Made by a program: the position numbers and the translations under genes
Source: Spirogloea muscicola
Taxonomy: Eukaryota; Streptophyta; Zygnematophyceae; Spirogloeales; Spirogloeaceae
Reading direction: 5' to 3'
Assembly (NCBI GenBank): GCA_009602725.1
Contig: WELB01000049.1
Span: 167,561-188,793, forward strand
DNA: 21,233 nt
Notes under the pieces: generated by a model
The model's database searches: none
Told to the model about the DNA's origin: nothing
What the model saw: the letters and a program-made list of their open reading frames with translations, nothing else
Part shown: one piece after another, positions 6,265 to 21,233 of the stretch
Position numbering within the stretch: position 1 is the stretch's first letter
Layout: each line of letters starts with the position of its first letter

Positions 6265-6570
6265 ACCATGACCGCGGAGGAGGCGACGGGGCGCTGGCCG
6301 GGGAATCAGTGGGGGATGAGCGCTAGCAGGGCGAGGGCGGCTCCATGGCCAGGCCAGGCGGCCGGATCGGGGGCTGCTGGAGGGCGGGAGCAGCAGCCAG
6401 CAGCCAGAGGGTGAGAAAACGAAGCGACCATATTCGCGGGCGGTTATGTAAGCCAGCTGTGCGCAGGGGGGGAATAATTGAGCAGAGCGGGGGCCCAGTG
6501 GCTGCGGCGGCGGCGGTGGGTGGTGGTGAGAGCGGAACGGCGGGAAGCGTACTGGGAGGGATGTGGAAGT

Positions 6571-6636
6571 GACTCTCGCAATGGGGGCCAAAGGGCTGTG
6601 ATGAGCCAGCCCGAAAAGCATTGACAATGTTCAAAG
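6571..6636 (-). repeat. Hairpin unit, subfamily A (copy A1)
   Basis: A degenerate copy of the A unit. Stem GGGCTG (6593-6598) pairs with CAGCCC (6607-6612), followed by the usual AAAAG and TTGACAATGTTC segment. It lies in the same open minus-strand frame that continues into PLATZ exon 1, so it may sit in the PLATZ promoter or 5' leader. Strand here and for the other units means the orientation in which the unit follows a LINE ORF end. Confidence 0.75.
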
Positions 6637-6690
6637 ATGTGGGGGCCCAAGGAGAAGATGCAGCAGCATCTCTGCCCACAAAACAGCGGA

Positions 6691-6723
6691 GGGCTCGCCC
6701 ATAGAAAAGAATGGACATTGTCC
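6691..6723 (-). repeat. Hairpin unit, subfamily B, lacking its hairpin (copy B1)
   Basis: The outer parts of a B unit are present (GCTCGCCCATAG and AAAAGAATGGACATTGTCC), but the approximately 27 bases between them that hold the hairpin in B2 and B3 are missing. The loss matches the structured part almost exactly. Confidence 0.65.
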
Positions 6724-6802
6724 GCAGGCCTTAAAAGGCCACAAAACAGTGCCAGGAACAGGGGCTTCCAAGAGGCGGGCGACGGCTGCGAAAGAAGAGA
6801 AG

Positions 6803-6866
6803 GGGCTCTCCCAGTGGCTCTGCTGCGAGGCCAAAAGAGAGTGCACAAGGTTCGAACGGGGCAGTG
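6803..6866 (-). repeat. Hairpin unit, subfamily A, degenerate (copy A2)
   Basis: It keeps GGGGCTCTCCCAGTGG at one end and CACAAGGTTCGAACGGGG at the other. The stem between them no longer pairs well. Confidence 0.55.
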
Positions 6867-6888
6867 ATGCGAAAGAAGGAAGAATGAA

Positions 6889-6960
6889 GTGCGCGCCCAT
6901 AGAGAAGAGGGGCTGGCAAAGCCAGCCTAAAAAGAGAATGGACAATGTCCAAAGCCAAAG
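6889..6960 (-). repeat. Hairpin unit, subfamily B (copy B2)
   Basis: Contains CGCCCATAGAGAAGAG, then a perfect 7-bp stem GGCTGGC (6911-6917), loop AAA and GCCAGCC (6921-6927), then AGAATGGACAATGTCC. It is followed within 10 bases by unit A3 in the same orientation. Confidence 0.85.
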
Positions 6961-6967
6961 AAAGAAG

Positions 6968-7087
6968 AAGTGGCTCTCCCAATTGGGGCAAGGGCTGTGA
7001 GAAGCCAGCCCGAAAAGAATTGACAAGGTTCGAAGGGGCCAACTACGAGCTAAGCAGCGACTGCGGGGCCTGAAGAGGCTATGGCAG
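6968..7087 (-). repeat. Full-length hairpin unit, subfamily A (copy A3)
   Basis: A complete A unit of about 120 bases. It runs from GTGGCTCTCCCAATTGGGG through the stem GGGCTG (6992-6997)/CAGCCC (7006-7011), TTGACAAGGTTCGAAGGGG and the CGAGCTAAGCAGCGACTGCG segment to ATGGCAG. It matches copy A10 (12901-13024, opposite strand) with only a handful of differences, so these two copies are recent. Confidence 0.9.
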
Positions 7088-7098
7088 AACATAAAGAG

Positions 7099-7155
7099 AA
7101 GAAGTGGCTCTCCCAATGGGGGCAAGGACATAAAGAGGAGCCGGAAAGAAGCAGC
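7099..7155 (-). repeat. Hairpin unit, subfamily A, partial (copy A4)
   Basis: Begins with GTGGCTCTCCCAATGGGGGC like A3, then departs from the consensus where the hairpin should be (GACATAAAGAGGAGCCGG). Confidence 0.65.
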
Positions 7156-7161
7156 AGGCTC

Positions 7162-7225
7162 TGGCCCCTTCGTACTTTGGCAGTTCTTTTTCTGGGCTGG
7201 CCACTCACAGCCATCGCCCTCTACT
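7162..7225 (+). repeat. Hairpin unit, subfamily A, opposite orientation (copy A5)
   Basis: Reads GGCCCCTTCGTACTTTGGC, then TTCTTTTTCTGGGCTGG and CAGCC. It is the first unit from the left that is inverted relative to A1-A4. Confidence 0.6.
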
Positions 7226-7265
7226 GCGGAGCAGCGTTTCTTTCTAGTGCTTGTTGTTCTTCGTA

Positions 7266-7350
7266 CTTCCCCTGGCCCCTTCTCGTCCTTTGTTCATTCT
7301 TTTTTGGGCTGGCTTTTTCCAGCCCCTATCCTCAATGGGCGAGCCCTTCT
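7266..7350 (+). repeat. Hairpin unit, subfamily C (copy C1)
   Basis: Layout: GGCCCCTTCTCGTCC, TTGTTCATTC, a stem GGGCTGG (7306-7312) with a 6-base loop and CCAGCCC (7319-7325), then CCTCAATGGGCGAGCCCTTC. It has the same order of parts as A and B, with a different stem and loop. Nearly the same unit recurs at 11801-11881. Confidence 0.85.
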
Positions 7351-7415
7351 CTCTACTGGAGCCGTCTTTCTCTCTCTTTCAAAAGTGGTCGACGGCTGTT
7401 AAAAGAGAGAAAAAA

Positions 7416-7470
7416 GAAGTGGCTCTCCCAATGGGGACAAGGGAGAAAAAGGTCAGCCCGAAAAAGAAAT
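7416..7470 (-). repeat. Hairpin unit, subfamily A, partial (copy A6)
   Basis: GTGGCTCTCCCAATGGGG is intact, followed by a weakened stem and TCAGCCCGAAAAAGAA. Confidence 0.6.
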
Positions 7471-7559
7471 TATTGTTGGAAGTAGCATCTCACTGAAAAG
7501 GGCCGAGGGCGAGGGGCTGCAAAATCGTTTCTTTCAGGGGAATGGAGTGTGTTTTGGCT

Positions 7560-8000
7560 AATGGAGGGGGTGGGGGCGAGAGCTGCTCAGGGCCGGCCCG
7601 CAAAAGAATGACAAGTTTCAGAAGCAAATAGCTCTTACAAATCAATCAAAATTTTCAATCACAGCCATCGCCCTTTACTCTTGAAGAAGAAAACTGGAAG
7701 GGTCTTGTTTCTTTTACTTGCAAAGCAAGGCGATGGTTGTGACAGGCCAGCCCAACGCCAATCTCAATGAACGAGAAGCAAGCTCTTTCGAACGGGGCGA
7801 GGGCAGGGCTAAGCCCAGTTCGAAAACAGCTGACGAGGTCCGAAGGGCCGAAAAGCGCTAAAACACGTATTCAAGCAAATACCTTGAAGGAGAATCACAA
7901 GGGCCGGAAAGAAGCAAGCGCGGCCAGATTAACTGGTTGCTGGGAGAGGCCAGCCCAAAGGAATGGACAAGGTCTGAAGGAGCCGGAGTGCTAAGGACAG
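7560..8000 (-). repeat. Run of decayed hairpin units
   Basis: At least three decayed units can be picked out. About 7560-7620 has GGCCGGCCCGCAAAAGAATGAC. About 7728-7850 has GGCCAGCCC and later CAGTTCGAAAACAGCTGACG followed by GGTCCGAAGGGCC. About 7930-7985 has GGCCAGCCC, AAAGGAATGGACAAGGTC and GAAGGAGCC. Their divergence suggests they are older than A3 or A7. No coding sequence was seen here. Confidence 0.5.
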
Positions 8001-8129
8001 AAAGGAGTTAGAAGACAAAGTTGGAAGGCGATACGAGGCTATGAGTGGATGAGCAAGCGCGCGGGATGGCAGCGGAGTGGTGGTAGGATCAGCAGCTCGA
8101 GTGGTAGGAGTGAGGCAGATGGCGCGGGA

Positions 8130-8520
8130 CCCGGGGCGTCGTGCGGGGATCGGGGCGCGCTGTGACTTAAGGGGGGGCGGGGCGCCGCGCTTGGCCCGCC
8201 GGCTTGGCGTCGGCGGGGGGCCGGGGGGCCCCAAGGCCTAGTGGGGCCGGCNTCCCCCCCGCCCCGCGCGCCGAGCCCCCTTTCCGAATGTTCGCCCGCC
8301 CGGTGTCGGCGCCGCGCCGCCTCCTCCGCTTCTCGCCACTCTCGGCATCGGCCCCCCATCAAGGTGGCCGGCGCACGCAGCTGCGCTTGGCCGCCGCGTG
8401 CCCGCCGCTAAGTGGTCTGCTCGCTTCGCGACAGCTTTCACTCAGCTGTCCATGGTACTTGCTTGCCTACGTGAAGTTTGGCCTGTCACAGGCACCGCTT
8501 CCTCGTTGAAAGAGCAGTCT
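8130..8520. other. GC-rich patch with one undetermined base
   Basis: Sequence from about 8150 to 8410 is far richer in G and C than its surroundings, with long G and C runs. The only undetermined base of the window (n) is at 8252. Open frames cross it on both strands but none resembles a known protein. It could be a CpG-rich promoter-like patch or a poorly assembled segment. Confidence 0.5.
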
Positions 8521-8574
8521 GTCTTCCTTGTATGAGCGTCCTTTCTTTCCTTTCCTCAGTGGCAATCCCTTGTC

Positions 8575-8625
8575 GTTCTTTGGGCTTGCTTTTCACAACC
8601 CTCGGCCACTTTGATAGAGCTCCCT
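8575..8625 (+). repeat. Decayed hairpin unit, A-like
   Basis: Reads TTTGGGCTTGCTTTTCACAA and then CGGCCACTTTGATAGAGCTC, an A-unit order with many changes. It is inverted relative to the next unit, A7. Confidence 0.4.
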
Positions 8626-8686
8626 TCATTCAGCCCCCCTCGACCTTCACCCTATCACCCTATGGCTCTCCCAACAGCCAAGAAAG

Positions 8687-8763
8687 AAAGTGGCTCTCCC
8701 AAAGGGGGCAAGGGCTGTGAACAGCCAGCCCGAAAAGAAGGACAAGGTCCAAAGGGACCAAAA
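8687..8763 (-). repeat. Hairpin unit, subfamily A (copy A7)
   Basis: GTGGCTCTCCCAAAGGGGGC is followed by GGGCTGTGAACAGCCAGCCC (8712-8731), which can fold as GGGCTG/CAGCCC or as the tighter GGCTGT/ACAGCC, then AAAAG and GGACAAGGTCC. In LINE sense it comes directly after the ORF tail at 8995-8795. Confidence 0.85.
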
Positions 8764-8794
8764 ACCGCTCTCAGAACTTGCACGGTAGGATGAT

Positions 8795-8995
8795 TCATTT
8801 TCGTAACCTCGAGTGAGGAGCCGCAGATCAGACAGACTAGCAGCCGAAAAGCAATCTCCCTGATGAAAGCCAGAGGCTGCAGCTAGAGCACGGCCAGCGA
8901 GGTGCAAGGCTTGGGCCATGGACTGCTGGAGTGAGATGTAGAGGCGCATACGGAAGACCTGAGCTAGTAAGCCAAAGGCGTTGAAGTTGGCCTGC
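8795..8995 (-). mobile_element. LINE fragment: 3' end of ORF only (tail 2)
   Basis: A minus-strand frame reads AQVFRMRLYISLQQSMAQAL, then GRALAAASG, FSAASLSDLRLLTRGY. This is a diverged copy of the last about 60 residues of the larger LINE at 9183-9899. It is 5'-truncated and has lost the stop codon after RGY. A hairpin unit (A7) follows in the same sense about 30 bases on. Confidence 0.8.
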
Positions 8996-9038
8996 TCACC
9001 TCGCCTGCGGGGAAGTCTTAAAGGGGTAAGTGCTGTGA

Positions 9039-9113
9039 GAAGAAAGTGCTCGCCCATAGAGAAGAGGGCTGGCAAAGCCAGCCCTAAAAGAACGGACAAT
9101 GTCCAAAGCCAAA
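9039..9113 (-). repeat. Hairpin unit, subfamily B (copy B3)
   Basis: The best hairpin in the window: AGGGCTGGC (9065-9073), loop AAA, GCCAGCCCT (9077-9085), a perfect 9-bp stem. It is flanked by GTGCTCGCCCATAGAGAAG and by AACGGACAATGTCC. In LINE sense it follows the main ORF end (stop at 9183) by about 70 bases, so it belongs to the 3' UTR of that copy. Confidence 0.9.
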
Positions 9114-9182
9114 GAAAGAGAAGCCGGAAAAAGGACTACACTACAAAACACTGCAAAACACATAGACGATGCAGAGGGTAGC

Positions 9183-9899
9183 TCAGTACCCACGAGTGAG
9201 CACCATCAGGTCTGAGTAGCTCGCTGCAGGGAAAGAGGCACTCCGCCGAGACCCAGAGGCGGCAGCCATAGCACGGCCTGCTCGCATGTGGACGGCGTGG
9301 GCAAGGGAGCGTTGAAGCGATACCGCCAGGCGCATGCGGAAGACTTGGGCGGGCGAACCGGCGGCGTCGAAGCCGGGAATCGCCCCTGGCAGACCCGGCC
9401 GCCGGTCAATGGCCTGGCGGGCAAGCCGCTGAAGGAGATCCAGCCAGCAGCGGCTGCCGAAAGCCCCGTGTACATCCATCGCCAGGGCCGCGAATTCATC
9501 ACCAACCGGGTGATCAGCATATTTTCGCTCCTTGCCCCGGGCCGCCAGGCCGACCGCGTGCCCTGCACACGACGCTGATCTGGTGGAAGTGGCGGAGTCG
9601 ATGCAGTCAGTTGTCACCACATCGGCGATGATGCAGGGACCGCCGCCGGGCGGAATGGCGACCAGGTCGGCGCGTCGTGTATGGGGCTGGCCGTTCGCGC
9701 CCGGCTGGATGGGCATCATGGTGGAGTTCTCCACAGCCACCTTAAAGCCAGCCTCCGTAAACACCCCCTGCATACCAGGAGATCGCAGGAGATCGTGGGA
9801 AGCGGTCCGCTCGCCCCCGTGTGCGCAACGGAGCATATGCGCAGCCAGCTTCGCAGGGTCAGCGTGACGGGCACCGCACACGCACTGCGTGACGCCCAC
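9183..9899 (-). CDS. LINE ORF C-terminal part: CCHC and PD-(D/E)XK-like domain
   Basis: An intact 238-residue frame ending VLTRGY-stop. It opens with C-V-C-G and continues to H and C, a C-x2-C-x(n)-H-x(n)-C zinc knuckle (CVCGARH, then HMLRCAHGG). Next come SHDLLR and RRADLVAIPPG, with IIADVVTTDCIDSA carrying the acidic residues. After these comes ARGKERKY with its basic residues and the FAALAMDVHGAFGS block. This order (knuckle, RxDLV, DVVTTD, K-rich turn, aromatic/Gly block) is that of the restriction-like endonuclease region of R2-type elements and the matching C-terminal region of algal and plant RT proteins. Catalytic assignment is inference. The last about 60 residues (from AQVFRMRL) are the part repeated in the truncated tails. 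It is preceded by the frame-broken RT and is not likely to be expressed alone. Confidence 0.75.
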   Translation of the reverse strand: MGVTQCVCGARHADPAKLAAHMLRCAHGGERTASHDLLRSPGMQGVFTEAGFKVAVENSTMMPIQPGANGQPHTRRADLVAIPPGGGPCIIADVVTTDCIDSATSTRSASCAGHAVGLAARGKERKYADHPVGDEFAALAMDVHGAFGSRCWLDLLQRLARQAIDRRPGLPGAIPGFDAAGSPAQVFRMRLAVSLQRSLAHAVHMRAGRAMAAASGSRRSASFPAASYSDLMVLTRGY

Positions 9900-11365
9900 G
9901 AGGCAGGGAGGGAGGAGGCCAAGAGCCGGTGGACCGCCGTCCTGAAGACCTCATCGGGCATCGTGAGCGCCGCGTGGAGTGGGAGCGTTGATAACCACGC
10001 CGCCGCCCCAGGGGAGGAGGCTGAGAGAAGCCGGGCGCGCCCTCGAAGGTCAGACGGAGGGAGAAGCTCCACCACCTGGTCAGAGGCCGCTTTTTCAACC
10101 AGCGCCGAGAAGCTTGCCTGGGCACGCAGGTCAGGGGTGTGGGCGAGGTGGATGAAAGGGACGGCCTGCTCCGACATGTTGGGGTGGACCGCCAGGAGCC
10201 CGTCGCGGGCAGAGCGGAGGGCAATCTGAACGGGCAGCTGGTCGATCTCCACTTCGGCTGCCGCCAGCTCCAGGGCGCGCTGGCCGTGGACGAGGAACCT
10301 CTGGCACACGGGGGCTGCCACTTGAGCCCAGCTACCCATGTAGGCTGCTCGCAGGCCCGGGCAACTGAGCGGCATCCCAAGCCGCCGCGGCTGGTCGGCA
10401 GGCTAGCCTGCAGCAGCGCAGCTGGTGAGGTGAGGAACGCAGGGTGCTGCGCGAGGGTGGCCGCGGACGCCAGGATGCCGGAGTCAAAAGCCGCATACGC
10501 TGCCTTCGCCGCCGATGAGGGAGGGATGGTGCGGGCCAGATAGTGTGGCCGCTGCGCGATGCAGCGTGTCAGCATCGCGGTCGCCAGCTGCATGTCCTGC
10601 AGCGTGTGAAGACGGTCCGCCGGCCGGAGGTGTTCCTGCAGCCGCGCCTGCAGCTGCTCCGTCACAAAGGCAGGTGCGCCTAGGGGGACGCCGAGGAGGG
10701 TGAGGCCCCCGGCTGGTGTCTGGCAACCCTCGGGCAGGCGCAGGCGGGCTGGCAAGCCCTGAGGGGACCAGGCCCTGCATTTGTCCGCCCAAATGTCCAG
10801 GCCGATCGCGTATAGCTGCACTTGGAGGGTGGCAAAGGCAGCTGCGACATCCTCTGGCTTCCCCACCAGCGTGGTGTCATCAGCGTATGTCGGCACGAGG
10901 ACGCCGGGGTGTACTGCGACCTTTGCCTGGAGCGCACGACGATGTGCCAGCGCAGAGTGGAACCCCGCCAGTGGAACCCCTTGGCGCGCGCCCCTGGTGG
11001 AGTTGTGGGTCTCCACCTCACCACCCCCCGCCCGCCACTGCAGCTCGCATGGCTGACCGCACCCCAGCCTGAAGAAGGGTAGAAGGCTGGGGAGGGCCCT
11101 CTCAGCTCCTCCGCGATGACATCACGATCAAGGCTGTTGAAGGCCTTGCGGACGTCGACCGCCATGGCCACCCATTCGGAATGCAGGTCCAGGGCGCGGC
11201 CCGTACGCCGTGCACGACCGTCTCACCGCCGCTCCGCAGCCCCGCACCAAATTGTTGGGGCGCCAGGTGTGCCTGGGCCTGCCCTGCGTGCTGTTGCCAG
11301 GCGGTAGAGCACCTCACCTATGGCGATGGGCCTGACCCCCCCACCGGCCTTGCTGAGCGCCAGCA
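9858..11365 (-). pseudogene. LINE reverse transcriptase and thumb region, broken
   Basis: RT blocks appear in order but in different frames: GGGVRPIAIGEVLYRLA (motif 1/2), QFGAGLRSGGETVVHGVRAA, AMAVDVRKAFNSLDRD (motif A), TRGARQGVPLAG (motif B), VLVPTYADDTTLVG (motif C, YADD), then LLGVPLG and a long alpha-helical region with RGGLGCRS. Frame breaks fall between the first and second blocks, before motif A, between motifs A and B, after GGLGCRS, and just before the C-terminal knuckle. All RT core motifs needed for the family call are legible, and the sequence is GC-rich like coding DNA. It reads as a relatively recent but dead copy. Confidence 0.85.
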
Positions 11366-11435
11366 GTGTGAGAAGCCAGCCCGAAAAGAGCTGACAAGGT
11401 TCGAAGGGGCCAAACTACGAAGGGGCCAAAAAGAA
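11366..11435 (-). repeat. Half hairpin unit, subfamily A, abutting the LINE 5' edge (copy A8)
   Basis: The unit begins within the hairpin (TGTGAGAAGCCAGCCCGAAA) and continues with CTGACAAGGTTCGAAGGGGC. The GTGGCTCTCCC half expected before it is replaced by LINE coding sequence. The LINE edge therefore lies in the loop side of an A unit, which suggests insertion into, or template jump onto, an older unit. Confidence 0.75.
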
Positions 11436-11486
11436 GGGCTACTTCTGAACTGGTGCGAGACACAGCTAGGACTCTCCGACGACCTT

Positions 11487-11535
11487 GTTCATCCATTTTG
11501 GGCTGGCCTTTCATGAAAGCACATTGCCCCCTCTT
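11487..11535 (+). repeat. Partial hairpin unit
   Basis: Reads TTGTTCATCCATTTTGGGCT followed by GGCCTTTCATGAAAG and TTGCCCCCTC, a shortened A/C-like unit directly ahead of the full unit A9. Confidence 0.5.
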
Positions 11536-11653
11536 ACACCTCTTCAGGCCCCGCAGTCGCTGCTTAACTCGTAATTTGGCCCCTTCGGACGTTGTCAATT
11601 CTTTTCGGGCTGGCTTCTGACAGCCCTTGCCCCCATTGGGAGAGCCACTTCTA
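11536..11653 (+). repeat. Full-length hairpin unit, subfamily A (copy A9)
   Basis: A complete A unit: CCTCTTCAGGCCCCGCAGTC, the GCTTAACTCG segment, GGCCCCTTCGGACGTTGTC, stem GGGCTG (11607-11612)/CAGCCC (11621-11626), then CCCCCATTGGGAGAGCCAC. Close to A3 and A10 in sequence. Confidence 0.88.
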
Positions 11654-11666
11654 CTTCTTCTTACAC

Positions 11667-11701
11667 CGAGTACCTCTGCTGGTACTCGTACTCGGTACTC
11701 G
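11667..11701. repeat. GTACTCG tandem and inverted repeat
   Basis: CGAGTACC (11667-11674), a 6-base loop and GGTACTCG (11681-11688) form a perfect 8-bp stem. The right arm is continued by two further, slightly irregular GTACTCG copies to 11701. It lies just downstream of A9 and is not part of the usual unit. Confidence 0.6.
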
Positions 11702-11800
11702 TTGCCCCCGTTACCAGGACTCGTGTAAGGCTCGACCTGCCCTCCCTTTCAATAAGATTCGTAGCTGCTTAAATTTCTGCTTGTGCTTGTTTTCCTCAGT

Positions 11801-11881
11801 GCTTCCCCTGGCCCCTTCTCGCTCTGTTCATTCTTTTTCGGCTGGCCTTTTCCAGCCCCTATCCTCTATAGGCGAGCCCTT
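11801..11881 (+). repeat. Hairpin unit, subfamily C (copy C2)
   Basis: GCTTCCCCTGGCCCCTTCTC, TGTTCATTC, GGCTGG/CCAGCC stem, then CCTATCCTCTATAGGCGAGC. It matches C1 at 7266-7350 closely and lies in the same orientation. Confidence 0.82.
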
Positions 11882-12247
11882 TCAATTCCATACGCACACC
11901 GCGCCTTCTTCTTGCCAGGAACCCTCCTGTCAACCCCTTCGCATCGTGGTGACGTGGCCCGTCTTCTTGACTCCACTTGTTACTGTGTGCTGGCCTACTT
12001 GCCCGCCACCTGCCTAATTTAGACGACCACCGACGAGAGAACACGCCCCTTCTCCCTGAAATAGCTCATTCCTTGTTCCTTCCCCTAAAAAGCATAATGG
12101 AGGCAATGTGTTGCTTATCCAAATCTGTGACGGGCCAGCGATTAAAGTGGACGAGAGGTTCACGCGTAATCTGAACAGTGACGCCCTCTTGCCCCCAGTA
12201 ATAGTAAACACCACATACTTAGCATGTTTCAACTCTAATTAGGTGAC

Positions 12248-12296
12248 GGGCAAAAGCTGCCCAATCCCGTTAACTGGGCAAAAGCTGCCCAATCCC
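12248..12296. repeat. Tandem pair of a 21-base hairpin-forming repeat
   Basis: Two identical 21-base copies start at 12248 and 12276, separated by 7 bases (period 28). Each contains GGGCA, AAAGC, TGCCC, a short inverted repeat, followed by AATCCC. They lie just upstream of the LINE fragment (tail 3). Confidence 0.8.
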
Positions 12297-12399
12297 TTCC
12301 CACGGCACCTGATTCGCTTGCCTATGGACTTTCATCGTCGGGCTCGATTCCGCCCCCCGTGCCAAGACCACGCTGACCGCCCTGCCAATCGCTGACCAT

Positions 12400-12815
12400 C
12401 CGCCGCACGCCCCACCTGCTTCAAGGTACCTACCTACCTTTACGTCCGCCAACCCGGCCGAGTCAGCGACGCTCGCCGGGCACGCGGTCGTTTTGGCGGC
12501 TCGGAGTAAGGAGCGCAAAGTACGCTGACCACCCTCTTCACTGCCCTGGCCATTGACGGTCAGAGGGCCTTCAGCAGTGGCTGGTTGGATCTCCTCCACG
12601 GCTTGCCCGGCAGGCCATCGAGCGGCGGCCGGGTTTGCCAGGCTTCAATGCTGTCGGCTCCCTCGCCCAGGTGCTGGCGGTCTCGTTTCTTTGGCTCACG
12701 CCGGTCCACGCGCGCTGGCCGCGCTATGGCTGCTGCCTCAGGGTCTCGGCAGAGTTCCACATTTCCTGCTTCGAGTTATTCTAATTTGTTGTTGCTCACT
12801 CGTGGTTGTTACTGA
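12400..12815 (+). mobile_element. LINE fragment, inverted copy of the ORF 3' end (tail 3)
   Basis: In changing plus-strand frames it reads ATLAGHAVVLAARSKERK, then AVAGW, AAASGSRQSSTFPASSYS and LLLLTRGCY-stop (12813-12815). These match AGHAVGLAARGKERKY through VLTRGY of the minus-strand LINE. It covers roughly the last 130 residues, is frame-broken, and lies in the opposite orientation to the main copy. Confidence 0.82.
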
Positions 12816-12830
12816 GCATTCCTCTGCATT

Positions 12831-12892
12831 TACCGGCAGCTAGTCTGTCGGATGTGAGGCTCCTCACTCGTGACTACTAAATGGTTCATCCT
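12831..12892 (+). mobile_element. LINE fragment, last 15 codons and start of 3' UTR (tail 4)
   Basis: Reads PAASLSDVRLLTRDY-stop (TAA 12878-12880), then ATGGTTCATCC. Both the coding end and the following bases match tail 2 (RLLTRGY, then AAATGAATCATCC) better than they match tail 3, so it is a separate insertion lying directly after tail 3. Unit A10 follows at once. Confidence 0.75.
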
Positions 12893-12900
12893 CCCCCGTT

Positions 12901-13024
12901 CTGCCATAGTCTCTTCAGGCCCCGCAGTCGCTGCTTAGCTCGTAGTTTGGCCCCTTCGAACCTTGTCAAGTCTTTTCGGGCTGGCTTCTCACAGCCCTTG
13001 CCCCCATTGGGAGAGCCACTTCTT
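12901..13024 (+). repeat. Full-length hairpin unit, subfamily A (copy A10)
   Basis: Runs from CTGCCATAGTCTCTTCAGGC through GGCCCCTTCGAACCTTGTC and the GGGCTG/CAGCCC stem to GGGAGAGCCACTTC. Nearly identical to A3 in reverse complement. It follows tail 4 by a few bases, which ties the unit to the LINE 3' end. Confidence 0.9.
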
Positions 13025-13070
13025 CTGCATCGTTATTCGTGTGTATAGTTTTGTCTTTGACCTTGGATTT

Positions 13071-13168
13071 GGACATTGTCCATTCGTTTTTGGGCTCGCT
13101 TTGCTAGCCCCCCCTTCTCTCAGGAAGAAAGTGCTCGCCCATAGAGAAGAGGGGCGAGCGCTTTCTTC
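13071..13168 (+). repeat. Subfamily B unit ending in a fold-back palindrome (copy B4)
   Basis: GGACATTGTCC, a GGGCT/AGCCC stem near 13092-13110, then the unit is joined to an inverted B end. Arms 13124-13140 and 13152-13168 are 17 bases each with a single mismatch (GTGC against GCGC) around an 11-base loop. Two unit ends meet head to head here. Confidence 0.8.
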
Positions 13169-13294
13169 CTTTGCCGTCGCTTTGTTTTGCCCTATCCTTT
13201 GCACTAGCTTTTGACAACAATGTTTTGGCTTTGACTGGCCTCCCTACCAATTCATGCGCACCGCGCGCGCCTTCTTCTCTCTGCGTTGGGGCTG

Positions 13295-13425
13295 GCAGCT
13301 CCTGGGTAAGCGCATGCACACCACCATCTTGCTCCAGCATTCCCAGGCGCGTTCGTATGCAATTTGCCAGGCAGGCCGCATCTTGGCGGCCGCCTCTGGG
13401 TCTCGGCGGGCGACTATTATCCTTT
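13295..13425 (+). mobile_element. LINE fragment, ORF 3' end (tail 5)
   Basis: One plus-strand frame reads LGKRMHTTILLQHSQARSYA, ICQAGRILAAASGSRRA. It lines up with VFRMRLAVSLQRSLAHAV and RAGRAMAAASGSRRSA of the main LINE. The match ends before the PAASYSD block, and hairpin unit B5 follows about 25 bases later in the same sense. Confidence 0.72.
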
Positions 13426-13448
13426 TCGGCACCGTTTTTTTTGAGGAT

Positions 13449-13518
13449 TGGGACTCTGTCCATTCCTTTTGGGCTGGCTTTGCCAGTCTCTCTTCTATGG
13501 GCGAGCACTTTCTTCTCT
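13449..13518 (+). repeat. Hairpin unit, subfamily B (copy B5)
   Basis: GGGACTCTGTCCATTCC, stem GGCTGGC (13472-13478), loop TTT, GCCAG, then CTTCTATGGGCGAGCACTTT. The right arm has lost its last pairs. Confidence 0.8.
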
Positions 13519-13647
13519 CAGGGCGAGCATTTTCCTTTTTCCTTTCCCGGCTGCTAGAAACTCCGACTCCGAAGGGGGGGAAGAAAAAAGGGGTGATCGA
13601 TGTGTGATATTCACTTGCGAAGCTGCGTGCTTTGCGTATTCTGAAAT

Positions 13648-13735
13648 GGCCCCTTCAGACCTTGGTCCTTTGGGCCGGCCTTTCAAAGCCATGCCTTATA
13701 TTGGAAGAGCTGTTTCACAGCCATCCCCCTCTGTG
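13648..13735 (+). repeat. Decayed hairpin unit
   Basis: GGCCCCTTCAGACCTTGGTCC, then TTTGGGCCGGCCTTTCAAAG, GGAAGAGCTGTTTCACAGCC. The order of parts is that of unit A with heavy divergence. An independent stem GGGCCGGCC is present. Confidence 0.5.
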
Positions 13736-13814
13736 GAACAGCTATTCTGTCTCTCTTGCGCATACTCATACTTCCTCTCTAGTGTGGCCGCTCCTGCTCG
13801 CAGCGATCGCCCCC

Positions 13815-13896
13815 GAGAAAGAAGTAGCTCTTTCAAAGGGGGCAAGGACTTCGAAATGTCAGCCCACTGAAGAATGAATAAGATCCAAGAGAGCCA
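13815..13896 (-). repeat. Hairpin unit, subfamily A, decayed (copy A11)
   Basis: GTAGCTCTTTCAAAGGGGGC, then GTCAGCCCACTGAAGAATGA and AAGATCCAAGAGAGCC. It follows tail 6 in LINE sense. Confidence 0.6.
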
Positions 13897-13939
13897 AATA
13901 TAGCGTGGAGACAATTAATGTGCCTGCTCAAAGATCCCC

Positions 13940-14000
13940 AGTCAGCAGCTAGCAGCAGGAAAGATGGCGCCCTGCCTAGAGCGGGAGGCAAAATTGGAGG
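13940..14000 (-). mobile_element. LINE fragment, ORF 3' end (tail 6)
   Basis: The minus strand reads FASRSRQGAIFPAAS, which lines up with AASGSRRSASFPAAS of the main LINE. It is only about 15 residues long, so the call rests largely on position: it is followed in the same sense by hairpin unit A11. Confidence 0.5.
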
Positions 14001-14043
14001 AGCGGGATGGGATGCAGCTCTTCCGTCGTAAGGCAGTGGGTGT

Positions 14044-14092
14044 GAAGAAGGGCTCGCCCATTGAGGATAGGGGCTGGAAAAAGCCAGCCCAA
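14044..14092 (-). repeat. Hairpin unit, subfamily C (copy C3)
   Basis: GGGCTCGCCCATTGAGGATA, then a perfect 7-bp stem GGGCTGG (14071-14077), 6-base loop, CCAGCCC (14084-14090). This is the right-most unit found and marks the edge of the repeat block. Confidence 0.82.
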
Positions 14093-14218
14093 AAAGGCCA
14101 GCTCAATGGAAGTAAACAAGGTCTGAGAAGCCACTTCCACTGCAGCATTGAGGGCAATATCTGTCCCCCGCCCCCCCTTGCCCCGTCTATCACCCTTCCT
14201 TGTTCCCTCTTCCCGCAG

Positions 14219-18300: not shown

Positions 18301-21233
18301 TATGCGGTGGGGCTGAGCCGGGGGCTTGAAGTAGGTATGTATGGTGCCAATGCACGCAGCTTCTGAAGGCTCGCAAAGTGGAACACCCACCTGCAGGATG
18401 GCAGCACAGACAGCAGAGGGTCACCTGCTGCAGCAAGAGCTGCAATATAACCCTCTGTCGCTAGCCATCCCTCTGCATGTCCTTGTCAGTATCAAGCGTG
18501 TGCAGTCATGGCAGAGGGGCACCTTTCCCAAGCCGGCGCCGACCCCTGGAGCAGCTTAGGACATAGTTCTGCAGCTTCCACGTATTTGCCTTCGTGCAGC
18601 AGTTGATCTAGATACTTGGTCCTAACCTGCTCCATGGGCAGGGACCTCCAAGATGGTAAGTAGTATGCAAGGGGCATGTGAGCAAGCCATGGCAGTGCCG
18701 CAGACTTGATAGGCCAGGCAAGCTGAGGCCAAACTTGGGAGCTCTAGCAGGTGACAGTTGCAAGGCGCGACCAATGAGAGAACACAGACTTCATTAAACA
18801 GTCGATTTGCCGCCCTTGCACCAGAGAGCCAAAGCCCCAAGGGCCCTGCCCTTCTTGGCTGTTGCGTGCCTAGAGCACAGTATCAATAAGCGGGCATCGC
18901 ACCGCAGCCTAGCGTGCGTGGAACAACCTCATCAAGAAGCTGTGGTGAGAGGTTGGCAGACTCAGCAGCCTCCAGCGCACGTGCATGATGCTCGTGCTGC
19001 AGCAACCACAGCACATGGTCCTCTGCATCTCGAGGCCTCGCCAGCACAACATCCTGGGGAGCTGCCATGTAGTACAGGGGCTCGTCCCCAGCGGTCCTCC
19101 CCCCCCCCCTGCCGCTGCTGTCTATCAGCAACATGAAGTGCAGCAGGTACTGTGCAACTTGCTCAGAATGCATAAAATCTCCGCTGGCCACAAGCAGGAT
19201 AACACACTGTCCATTTGCTCAGGTCTTCCCTTGAAGGCGTCAAAGCAGCAGGCTATGACTACAAGGTAAGAGTCTGTGCTGCACTGCTCCTGCAGGTGTG
19301 GCTTGCTCGCAAGCCAGCAATAGATGGTTGCAATCAAAGTAGAGTGCGGCTGCTGATGTGAAAAGAGCGGCTGTAAAAGGCCAGCCAGATGCATACAGGT
19401 GTTCATGACAGAGCTACCAGGCTAGGCAGACAGGGCGCTCTTAGTACCCCCGTGTCAGCAGTAGGAAGTCAGATGAGTCTGATTAAAAGGGTGGTCTGAC
19501 CAGAAAGAGGGGTGTGTGCCATGAGGTAGTCGCCCGGCCCGCAGCTCTGGTAGCCCTGCAGTGGAAGCTCCTCCAGAGCCAGTTCCTCGCCAGCCCAAGT
19601 GATAACACGCGCCTCAGGAGGCCTGCTGCCCTGAGCAGGCTGATGACGGAGCACAGAAGCCAATAAGGCAACCTGCCCCGGGTGCCCACTCAGCAAGCAG
19701 TCTCACAGGGAGCCCCTATGTCTATGTCTCGATCCACTTGTGCAAGAGAAATATCCACCGAGATACCTTCGCGTCCTGGAAGCTGGCAGCTGTGCCGAAG
19801 ATGACAAGTGCGTCCCCGCTATAAGGGGCAAGGCCTGAGACCCAGCAATCGAGCTGGATGAGCTGGGAGGGGCTTGTAGCAGCCGCTTCCAGTGGCGCCA
19901 CTGACACCTTGAGTGCACCGGCACCAGATTGATGCGTGCCTTCCTCGGCATTGCTCTTGGGCTTGCTTTGCTGCAAACTGGTGGGCGGCAGGCCCAGCGG
20001 CCCCAGCAGGCCTTGCAGAAGGCCATCCTCGGGCGCGAGGCTGCGGAGGACGGTAGCTCTCTGCACAATGGGCCCCCAGCCCACCACCAGCACGAGGGCG
20101 CCCTGCGGCCATATCGAACTGCAGCAGCATCAGCACCTCGGCAGCTTTGCCACATCCTCAAGAGGCTTCCTCTTCCTCTCGACCGCGAGAACTGTGACCC
20201 TTGTTTCCTGGACCCTAGACCTTAACATCAAGTGTGGAGCGCGAGTCGAGCTTGTGAGAGCGTGGAGGGGGAGAGAGGGAGGGAGAGTGGGGTGGTGTAG
20301 GTTGGTGGGATACGGCCAGGCCAAGCTACCTGCCAGAGCAGGCAGGGGCGCAGCAATGTGGTGGGCGTCGCGAGCTCGGGTCGTGGCAGGAAGGCCGTTT
20401 GCTGCTGCAGAGCCAGGTCGAGCACGTGGACACCGGCGTCGGTGGCCCACGCCACCGCCCGACCGTGCCAGGCGGCAGCGCGGATGGGGCCCTCGCGGCC
20501 GGCGGCGAGGACCGTGTCCCGGGGCCCCAGGCCCAGCCAGCGGCCGCGCGTGGACGTGGAGAGGAGGAGGCGGCCTGCGTCGCCGCCGGACACGAAGCGG
20601 CGCGCCGAGGGCGGCGCAACCGCGTACGCGGGGTCCAGCGCCACCGCGTGCACCGCGACGCCGAACTCGAAGCGCTCCTGCTGGGCACACAAGCGGCCGC
20701 CGGAGGACTCTGTTTTAGTCACAGCTTTCTGGCTTTTACTATCTCTACCGGTAATAGCAGGTGCTACGACTATGGTACTAACTATGGATGCTACTTTCTT
20801 TGGCGGCTGCGGCTCCTCGTTGAGACTGACTGGAAAGCGACGGAGCTGGAGCAGGGGGCCCAGCGGCAGCAGCAAGCGGCCCCAGCTGCGTGAGCAAGCA
20901 GCAGCGCCCAGCACTATGGCTGCCGGCAGGTTGAGCTCAGCCTAGCCTCTCGGAATCCTGAAAACTCTGGCACCTTAAACCCCGACCACTTGAACAGGAA
21001 ACCCCTAGATTGTGAACCCTAGCTTCCAAATGGGGCCCAGCCCTCCCGCAGTCCCGGGCGCCCTGCGGCGGTGCTGTGGCGCTGCCCTCCCATCCCCCGG
21101 CATCACCTGGCCGTCGTCGGCGCCGTCGGCGAAGAGCGGCGTGACGAGCACGGAGCCGTCGGCGCCGGCGGAGGCCACGAACTCGCCGGCGGCGTCGAAG
21201 CAGGCGTCGGCGACGCGCGCGCCGCGGTGCGCG
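15339..21233 (-). CDS. VPS41: VPS41, HOPS complex subunit (19 exons, 5' partial)
   Basis: VPS41 is a subunit of the HOPS tethering complex, acting with Rab7-type GTPases in fusion of late endosomes and AP-3 vesicles with the vacuole. Exons are 21233-21107 (partial), 20677-20330, 20102-19767, 19672-19501, 19121-18928, 18626-18523, 18390-18297, 18199-18044, 17927-17865, 17703-17650, 17443-17246, 17134-17057, 16954-16835, 16626-16546, 16447-16362, 16138-16057, 15952-15892, 15684-15561 and 15402-15339. All phases agree and give about 846 residues; plant VPS41 is near 950-1000, so roughly 100 N-terminal residues lie outside. The N-terminal part is a WD40-type propeller (FDAAGEFVASAGADGSV, RRFVSGG, GREGPIRAAAW). 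The middle is a clathrin-heavy-chain repeat (GDEPLYYMAAPQDVVLARPR, AAELCPKLLQGSAPAWER, VELYAEFDKQLLLPFLRSS, VYILGRMGN, FVTTQNDEELWDEL, LLEHAVGHIDPL). The C-terminus is a RING-H2: CSIC, YCSHSYHLTC and, in the last exon, CVLC. Two introns are GC-AG. It looks intact. Confidence 0.97.
17135..17245 (-). other. GC-AG intron in VPS41 (before VELYAEFD)
   Basis: The exon ends CTTACAG at 17246 and the intron opens GCAAAT. The acceptor TTTCAG precedes GTGGAGC at 17134. Joined product FHGLQ-VELYAEFD matches plant VPS41 FHDMQVELYAEYD without gap. Confidence 0.85.
18200..18296 (-). other. GC-AG intron in VPS41 (after SPTAYQ)
   Basis: The exon ends TATCAG at 18297 and the intron opens GCAACT. The acceptor GTTCCAG ends at 18200. 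Joined product TAYQ-VVLKAFLAT matches plant VPS41 TVYEVALVALAT. A GT donor nine bases further would add three residues (ATD) not present in relatives. Confidence 0.7.

Follow-up and report, generated by a model that had tools for sequence, protein, structure and literature searches.

What are the short hairpin units that lie, on both strands, in a 21,233-nucleotide (nt) stretch of the genome of the streptophyte Spirogloea muscicola (assembly GCA_009602725.1, contig WELB01000049.1; C49:167561-188793 in our numbering, hereafter the window, in a genome of 153 Mb and 471 contigs)? A preliminary description, made from the letters alone, held that the readable open reading frame (ORF) ends of a long interspersed nuclear element (LINE) are each followed here by such a unit in the same orientation, and that the hairpin is a part of the element's 3' untranslated region (UTR). 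Based on position, orientation, spacing, polarity, variable 5' ends and an excess of short target-site duplications, all of which were observed directly, we conclude that the units are very probably the terminal 3'-UTR part of a large set of related LINE (non-long-terminal-repeat, non-LTR) families, and that the units without coding sequence are truncated copies of these rather than a separate element.

Hairpin units downstream of LINE reading frames

Loci were drawn from the genome either by unit (L001-L030 and L061-L090) or by ORF (L031-L060, 30 loci for which similarity to the C-terminal 238 residues was the sole criterion), and L002, L031 and L061, which overlap with the window, were excluded. 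The genome searches scored the best candidates, namely 40 of 191, 150 of 21201 (the C-terminal ORF search) and 40 of 2313; 42 of the 425 units, covering fewer than 45 model positions, were dropped before the analyses of type, distance and extension, and 7659 of the 309295 bases analysed are N.

In 29 of 29 ORF-selected loci (the window's own copy being left out), several of which are near-identical young copies and hence do not amount to 29 independent families, a same-sense unit lies downstream of the ORF end. The distance between the two is 64-77 nt in 26 of these loci, including L038, where an inserted A unit comes first and the copy's own B unit after it; the remaining three have distances of 159, 169 and 386 nt, two of them with an opposite-sense unit inserted in between. 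An opposite-sense unit within 100 nt was seen in two of the 29. When all 165 tails in the loci are counted, a set to which selection by unit contributed, a unit within 100 nt is found in the same sense for 126 and in the opposite sense for 10. Furthermore, a whole-genome pattern search recovered the exact ORF end with a B hairpin at 78-104 nt 603 times in the same sense versus 6 times in the opposite sense, along with 157 exact A-type junctions; the exact ORF end alone occurs 1383 times and the exact hairpins alone 1526 (B) and 1615 (A) times, as against 0 for backwards controls, all of these counts being lower bounds because most copies carry point changes. Extrapolating from the exact fraction (125 of 425 units in the loci, 2 of 20 in the window), we estimate that the genome probably contains on the order of ten thousand units, if not more. 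The stop-to-unit distance is constant within each family, at about 69 nt for A, 84 for A2, 64 or 74 for B, 68 for C, 47 for E, 40 for G and 54 for H. The proposal that the hairpin forms the 3' end of the LINE, together with the expectation that LINE ORF ends with spread 5' truncation points would be found upstream of it across the genome, is borne out by these observations.

One could instead suppose that an independent hairpin element, MITE-like (miniature inverted-repeat transposable element) or other, makes up the units and prefers LINE ends as its insertion site. Clustering of units might be cited in favor of this: on contig C5, 16 of 46 gaps between neighbouring exact A hairpins are shorter than 2 kb (simulated mean 2.65, maximum 9), a pattern that may reflect nesting into the element's own copies or the tolerance of certain regions. 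However, an inserter is not expected to yield so lopsided a polarity as 603 to 6, nor the fixed spacing and sense past the stop codon, the same stop-to-unit UTR throughout a family and the lack of a common 5' boundary; the preliminary description had named sharp ends on both sides without an ORF upstream as the mark of such an element, and the genomic copies do not have this form. We therefore rejected this explanation on the fixed stop-to-unit spacing and give it practically no chance of being correct.

Returning to the window with the units read as LINE 3' ends, nhmmer (E <= 1e-3) detects 20 units, all within 6566-14114. The ORF remnants and the units following them are:

9186..11369, minus strand: longest LINE copy in the window (tblastn), corresponding to residues 3-735 or so of the L056 protein and reaching from the reverse transcriptase (RT) to the C-terminus; truncated at the 5' end, with a broken frame
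9042..9112, minus: B unit, 3'-UTR hairpin module of this main copy, 74 nt past the ORF end; RNA fold z -3.35
8803..9042, minus: second truncated copy, represented by an A-type ORF tail that ends at 8803
8687..8760, minus: A unit after the preceding tail
12436..12809, plus: decayed B-like ORF tail, ending at 12809
12834..12877, plus: A-type ORF end, ending at 12877
12947..13023, plus: A unit, 70 nt past the ORF end at 12877
13311..13412, plus: short ORF tail fragment, best E 6e-4
13442..13513, plus: B unit after this fragment
13948..13989, minus: sixth ORF tail, E 0.28
13821..13888, minus: weak unit after the sixth tail

Thus, all six tails of the preliminary description could be located with their units in the order and sense it gave, although the sixth taken alone is not significant.

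Probable truncated copies without coding remnants

The window holds further units, several of them without a long coding remnant, for which the 5' extension, i.e. the collinear upstream similarity common to a unit and any other unit, is given where measured:

6566..6639, minus: A-like unit without coding remnant; extension 0
6886..6958, minus: B unit without long coding remnant; extension 132 nt
6966..7042, minus: A unit; extension 85 nt
7162..7237, plus: E-type unit
7283..7349, plus: C unit; extension 121 nt; fold z -3.59
7938..7984, minus: G-type unit
11367..11413, minus: truncated A unit where the main copy has its 5' end
11576..11652, plus: A unit; extension 95 nt
11809..11883, plus: C unit; extension 264 nt; fold z -2.58
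13063..13128, plus: decayed B unit
13647..13716, plus: diverged H-type unit
14047..14114, minus: C unit, its 5' end within the unit

Among the 272 units not picked by ORF or UTR, 19 lack a partner and 6 are cut by the locus end; the 247 measured have a median extension of 121 nt (90% 377, 95% 471, maximum 977), values which are lower bounds since nested insertions shorten them. No one boundary marks the 5' ends, which are scattered from positions within the unit to some 1 kb upstream of it: for 277 units, 81 lie downstream of the LINE stop codon, 83 in the ORF within 100 nt of its end and 113 further up. How often an ORF end is present within the 160 nt upstream of a unit rises with the length of its collinear upstream sequence: in the 304 non-query units that have a partner, the share is 3 of 79 at 60 nt or less, 21 of 78 at 60-150 nt and 99 of 147 above 150 nt. 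The difference between coding and coding-free units is confined to the 5' end, the 3' end being constant, as the earlier suggestion of extremely truncated copies had implied. Direct repeats of at least 6 nt flank 43 of 237 units (permuted mean 17.15, maximum 22 in 20 permutations) and those of at least 8 nt 13 of 237 (permuted mean 3.9, maximum 7), with a looser test giving 15 of 298 against 5.5 at 8 nt or more; these target-site duplications are a statistical excess only, most single units having no clear duplication.

The abundance of units without coding remnant, together with the 81 of 277 5' ends downstream of the stop codon, would also fit a family of short interspersed nuclear elements (SINEs) that borrowed the LINE 3' end and is mobilized in trans, and SINEs with LINE tails are described for Chlamydomonas in PMC3747384. 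Among the 277 units of window and loci, 5' ends are also in excess at 20-80 nt upstream of the stop codon in several LINE families; this bump might likewise be taken to speak for a SINE, its breadth against one. Upstream of the units one finds not a common head but the LINE UTR or ORF, extending to a variable point in each family; ARAGORN detected two, non-recurrent, transfer RNA (tRNA)-like genes in the 59 sources scanned; and at gathering score Rfam yields no match in the window, two microRNA models falling below threshold. As a constant 5' head derived from a small RNA was not found, there being neither a single boundary nor a recurrent tRNA, we rejected a SINE origin, which we regard as highly improbable.

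Terminal modules and the hairpin

Of the 383 units, 377 could be assigned to nine types, A, A2, B, C, E1, E2, G, H and I (6 unassigned; E1, E2 and H are based on 3, 4 and 3 sequences), which have one terminal module in common. Its three parts are a conserved box, the hairpin GGGCUGG ... CAGCC and a tail whose last letters are about UUCUUCU, the element terminus being about CACTTCTTCT in A and ACTTTCTTCT in B. The ORF tails were aligned for eight types and proved to be related throughout, the one exception being the E2 consensus, which is out of frame. Averaged over 28 pairs of families, similarity is 0.49 for the UTR between stop codon and module (near chance, shuffled sequences giving mostly 0.35-0.5), 0.61 for the ORF tail and 0.66 for the module, a value favored by selection since the units were located via the module. 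As a check on this bias, the protein family was found to include further ORF tails that lead to the modules D, F and K (46, 19 and 18 BLAST matches in the loci, respectively). Because these related LINEs end in other modules, the A/B/C-like module is not universal among the related LINEs of this genome. In C-type copies the ORF tail is closer to E and the hairpin part closer to B in 9 of 9 cases (only four E tails being compared), a mosaic that could stem from exchange of terminal modules or just as well from a rapidly changing E module.

Two of these other module kinds are present in the window:

19346..19629, minus: K-family LINE tail (19629-19444, best E 0.003, ending ...LLLTRGY) with its own distinct 3' module (19440-19346)
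16246-16151, minus: second copy of the K-type 3' module
13227-13275, 11877-11909 and 11724-11753, plus: 3' modules of the related D family

The K-family tail, ending at 19444, is a seventh that the preliminary description had overlooked; it is of a different family, and what follows it is a non-A/B/C module, the fourth LINE 3' module type (GGCTGGC...ACAGCCG...CAGCAGCCGC). The D-type modules (TTGAATTGGCCTCCC...CATGCGCACCGCGCGCCTTCT) are nested among the hairpin units, and both K-type copies (19629-19346 and 16246-16151) lie near or inside a Vps41-like gene (TPR-like region PF23556, 17018-18445, minus strand), the host gene at one side of the repeat cluster; at the other side is ALG3 (PF05208, E 3e-21, residues 51-104 of the plus-strand ORF 3-479).

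The stem GGCUG/CAGCC is identical in ten family sequences while the loops differ; it is present in the minimum-energy fold of 8 of the 10, with E2 and H preferring a shifted pairing that uses the same 5' arm, and in 4 of 7 single units tested the fold is better than that of shuffled sequences (z -2.6 to -3.6). An invariant stem leaves no covariation to be seen, and we consider an RNA hairpin plausible.

Several observations weigh against the reading of these units as LINE 3' ends with a structured hairpin. Of the 165 tails for which 400 nt of downstream sequence is available, 24 lack a unit or have a first one beyond 400 nt, several of these belonging to families with other modules; no full-length copy was among the sequences read, and nesting curtails the extensions by which truncation was gauged. 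In 3 of the 7 units tested (A and E units) the fold is no better than that of shuffles, and the RNAalifold consensus of 14 units lacks the hairpin, showing 6 pairs of another structure, a result that is weak either way as MAFFT misregistered the 3' arms. An outer helix closing the hairpin, promising in the B, C and I folds, was rejected, a family's own boxes pairing no better than swapped ones (self -7.5, cross -7.6 kcal/mol, p 0.56).

Given a hairpin within the LINE 3' UTR, it could serve as a transcription or processing signal rather than as a recognition site for the RT: covariation is not seen, and conservation alone is silent on which protein reads the hairpin. In stringent LINEs, however, the protein binds a 3' stem-loop, recognizing the stem generally and the loop specifically, according to PMC4176376; a constant stem with family-specific loops, as stringent recognition would predict, is what we observe here, and the conserved module extends to the very end of the inserted copy. 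In light of this precedent and of the conservation, we favor recognition by the RT, as the preliminary description had suggested, and think a processing signal unlikely, if still a serious candidate.

With the units as LINE 3' ends, the transcript would end a short fixed distance past the stop codon, in the module; the protein would bind the hairpin and nick the target, the RNA 3' end being primed there, and target-primed reverse transcription would begin at the UUCUUCU end and usually halt within a few hundred nucleotides. With such an early stop, many insertions would carry just the 3' UTR, or the UTR and the last codons. We further speculate, tentatively and with more doubt than conviction, that this genome witnessed a lock-and-key radiation, in which related LINE proteins came to use at least four kinds of module (A/B/C-like, D, F and K), the A/B/C-like kind keeping its stem while loop and flanks diversified into nine types, perhaps with terminal-module exchange, and a stop of the RT after about 200 nt in most insertions made SINE-like hairpin dust without a SINE.

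The encoded protein and comparison with known systems

The RT domain RVT_1 (PF00078) is recognized in the ORF of the relative L056 with an E-value of 7.6e-14, above the Pfam cut-off, and weakly (2.7e-4, below the cut-off) in the window ORF. After the RT, the C-terminus contains a Cys/His knuckle, C-X1-C-X12-H-X3-C, and then an R-x-D...D stretch, the latter identified by eye; the part beyond the knuckle presumably recalls R2. The knuckle does not have the spacing published for LINEs with a restriction-like endonuclease (RLE), given as CX2-3CX7-8HX4C in PMC5678591. For a C-terminal endonuclease, neither Pfam nor profile and single-sequence searches of the PDB gave a match, and a single-sequence structure model of the C-terminal domain (predicted local distance difference test, pLDDT, 37.9) was too poor for use. 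With masked stretches read as N, the apurinic-like endonuclease PF14529 has no match, and PF03372 has 12 in the whole genome, none of them on C63, C111, C251, C176, C48 or C77, the contigs on which six copies have open reading frames of 1386-1433 amino acids; one match (C20:466271-466636, plus) has a listed copy (C20:471063, plus) 4.4 kb downstream. Judging by these sequence features, the element is probably a LINE of the RLE type.

The identity of the hairpins as LINE 3' ends is all but settled. The principle of a 3' hairpin ending a LINE was already known; what is of interest is how extreme the truncation is and how diverse the modules are within one genome, which offers natural trials of how 3' ends are used, dated and numbering in the thousands, with nine types, one stem, different loops and sister families with other modules. 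How LINE proteins distinguish their own RNA becomes testable by comparing proteins and modules. For annotation it is a warning that short coding-free repeats of such kind are not necessarily SINEs or MITEs. No earlier report of this element was found in the literature searched, subscription papers being mostly outside the search.

An RT ORF, variable 5' truncation with a constant 3' end and an excess of target-site duplications are as in LINEs generally, and the conservation of the module between families provides the 3' stem-loop of the stringent type. The stringent LINEs UnaL2 and ZfL2-1/ZfL2-2 of zebrafish, which belong to the L2 clade and possess an apurinic-like endonuclease, share with our element a conserved stem-loop near the 3' end of the RNA, a constant stem, a family-specific loop and heavy 5' truncation, whereas such an endonuclease was not detected at the long copies here. 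The RLE LINEs (R2, R4, NeSL/Utopia, HERO and CRE) resemble it in the order of RT, Cys/His knuckle and C-terminal R-x-D...D, but differ in that the knuckle here is C-X1-C-X12-H-X3-C and insertion sites appear dispersed. Dualen/RandI are chlorophyte LINEs with a C-terminal RLE, SINEs bearing their tails being reported in PMC3747384 and PMC4640811; Dualen also has an apurinic-like endonuclease, while PF03372 is absent from the six long-ORF contigs here. Nested arrays of mostly 5'-truncated 3' ends are a likeness to Zepp and Zepp-like L1 elements, as these are portrayed in PMC8226300 and PMC3446292. Zepp, however, is centromeric with one cluster per chromosome and, according to PMC3747384, ends in poly(A); Zepp-like centromeric clusters were rejected for our element, as its matches are spread over many contigs, the exact hairpins forming local clusters. 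Within plants, L1 lineages that retain a 3' hairpin are described in PMC3747384.

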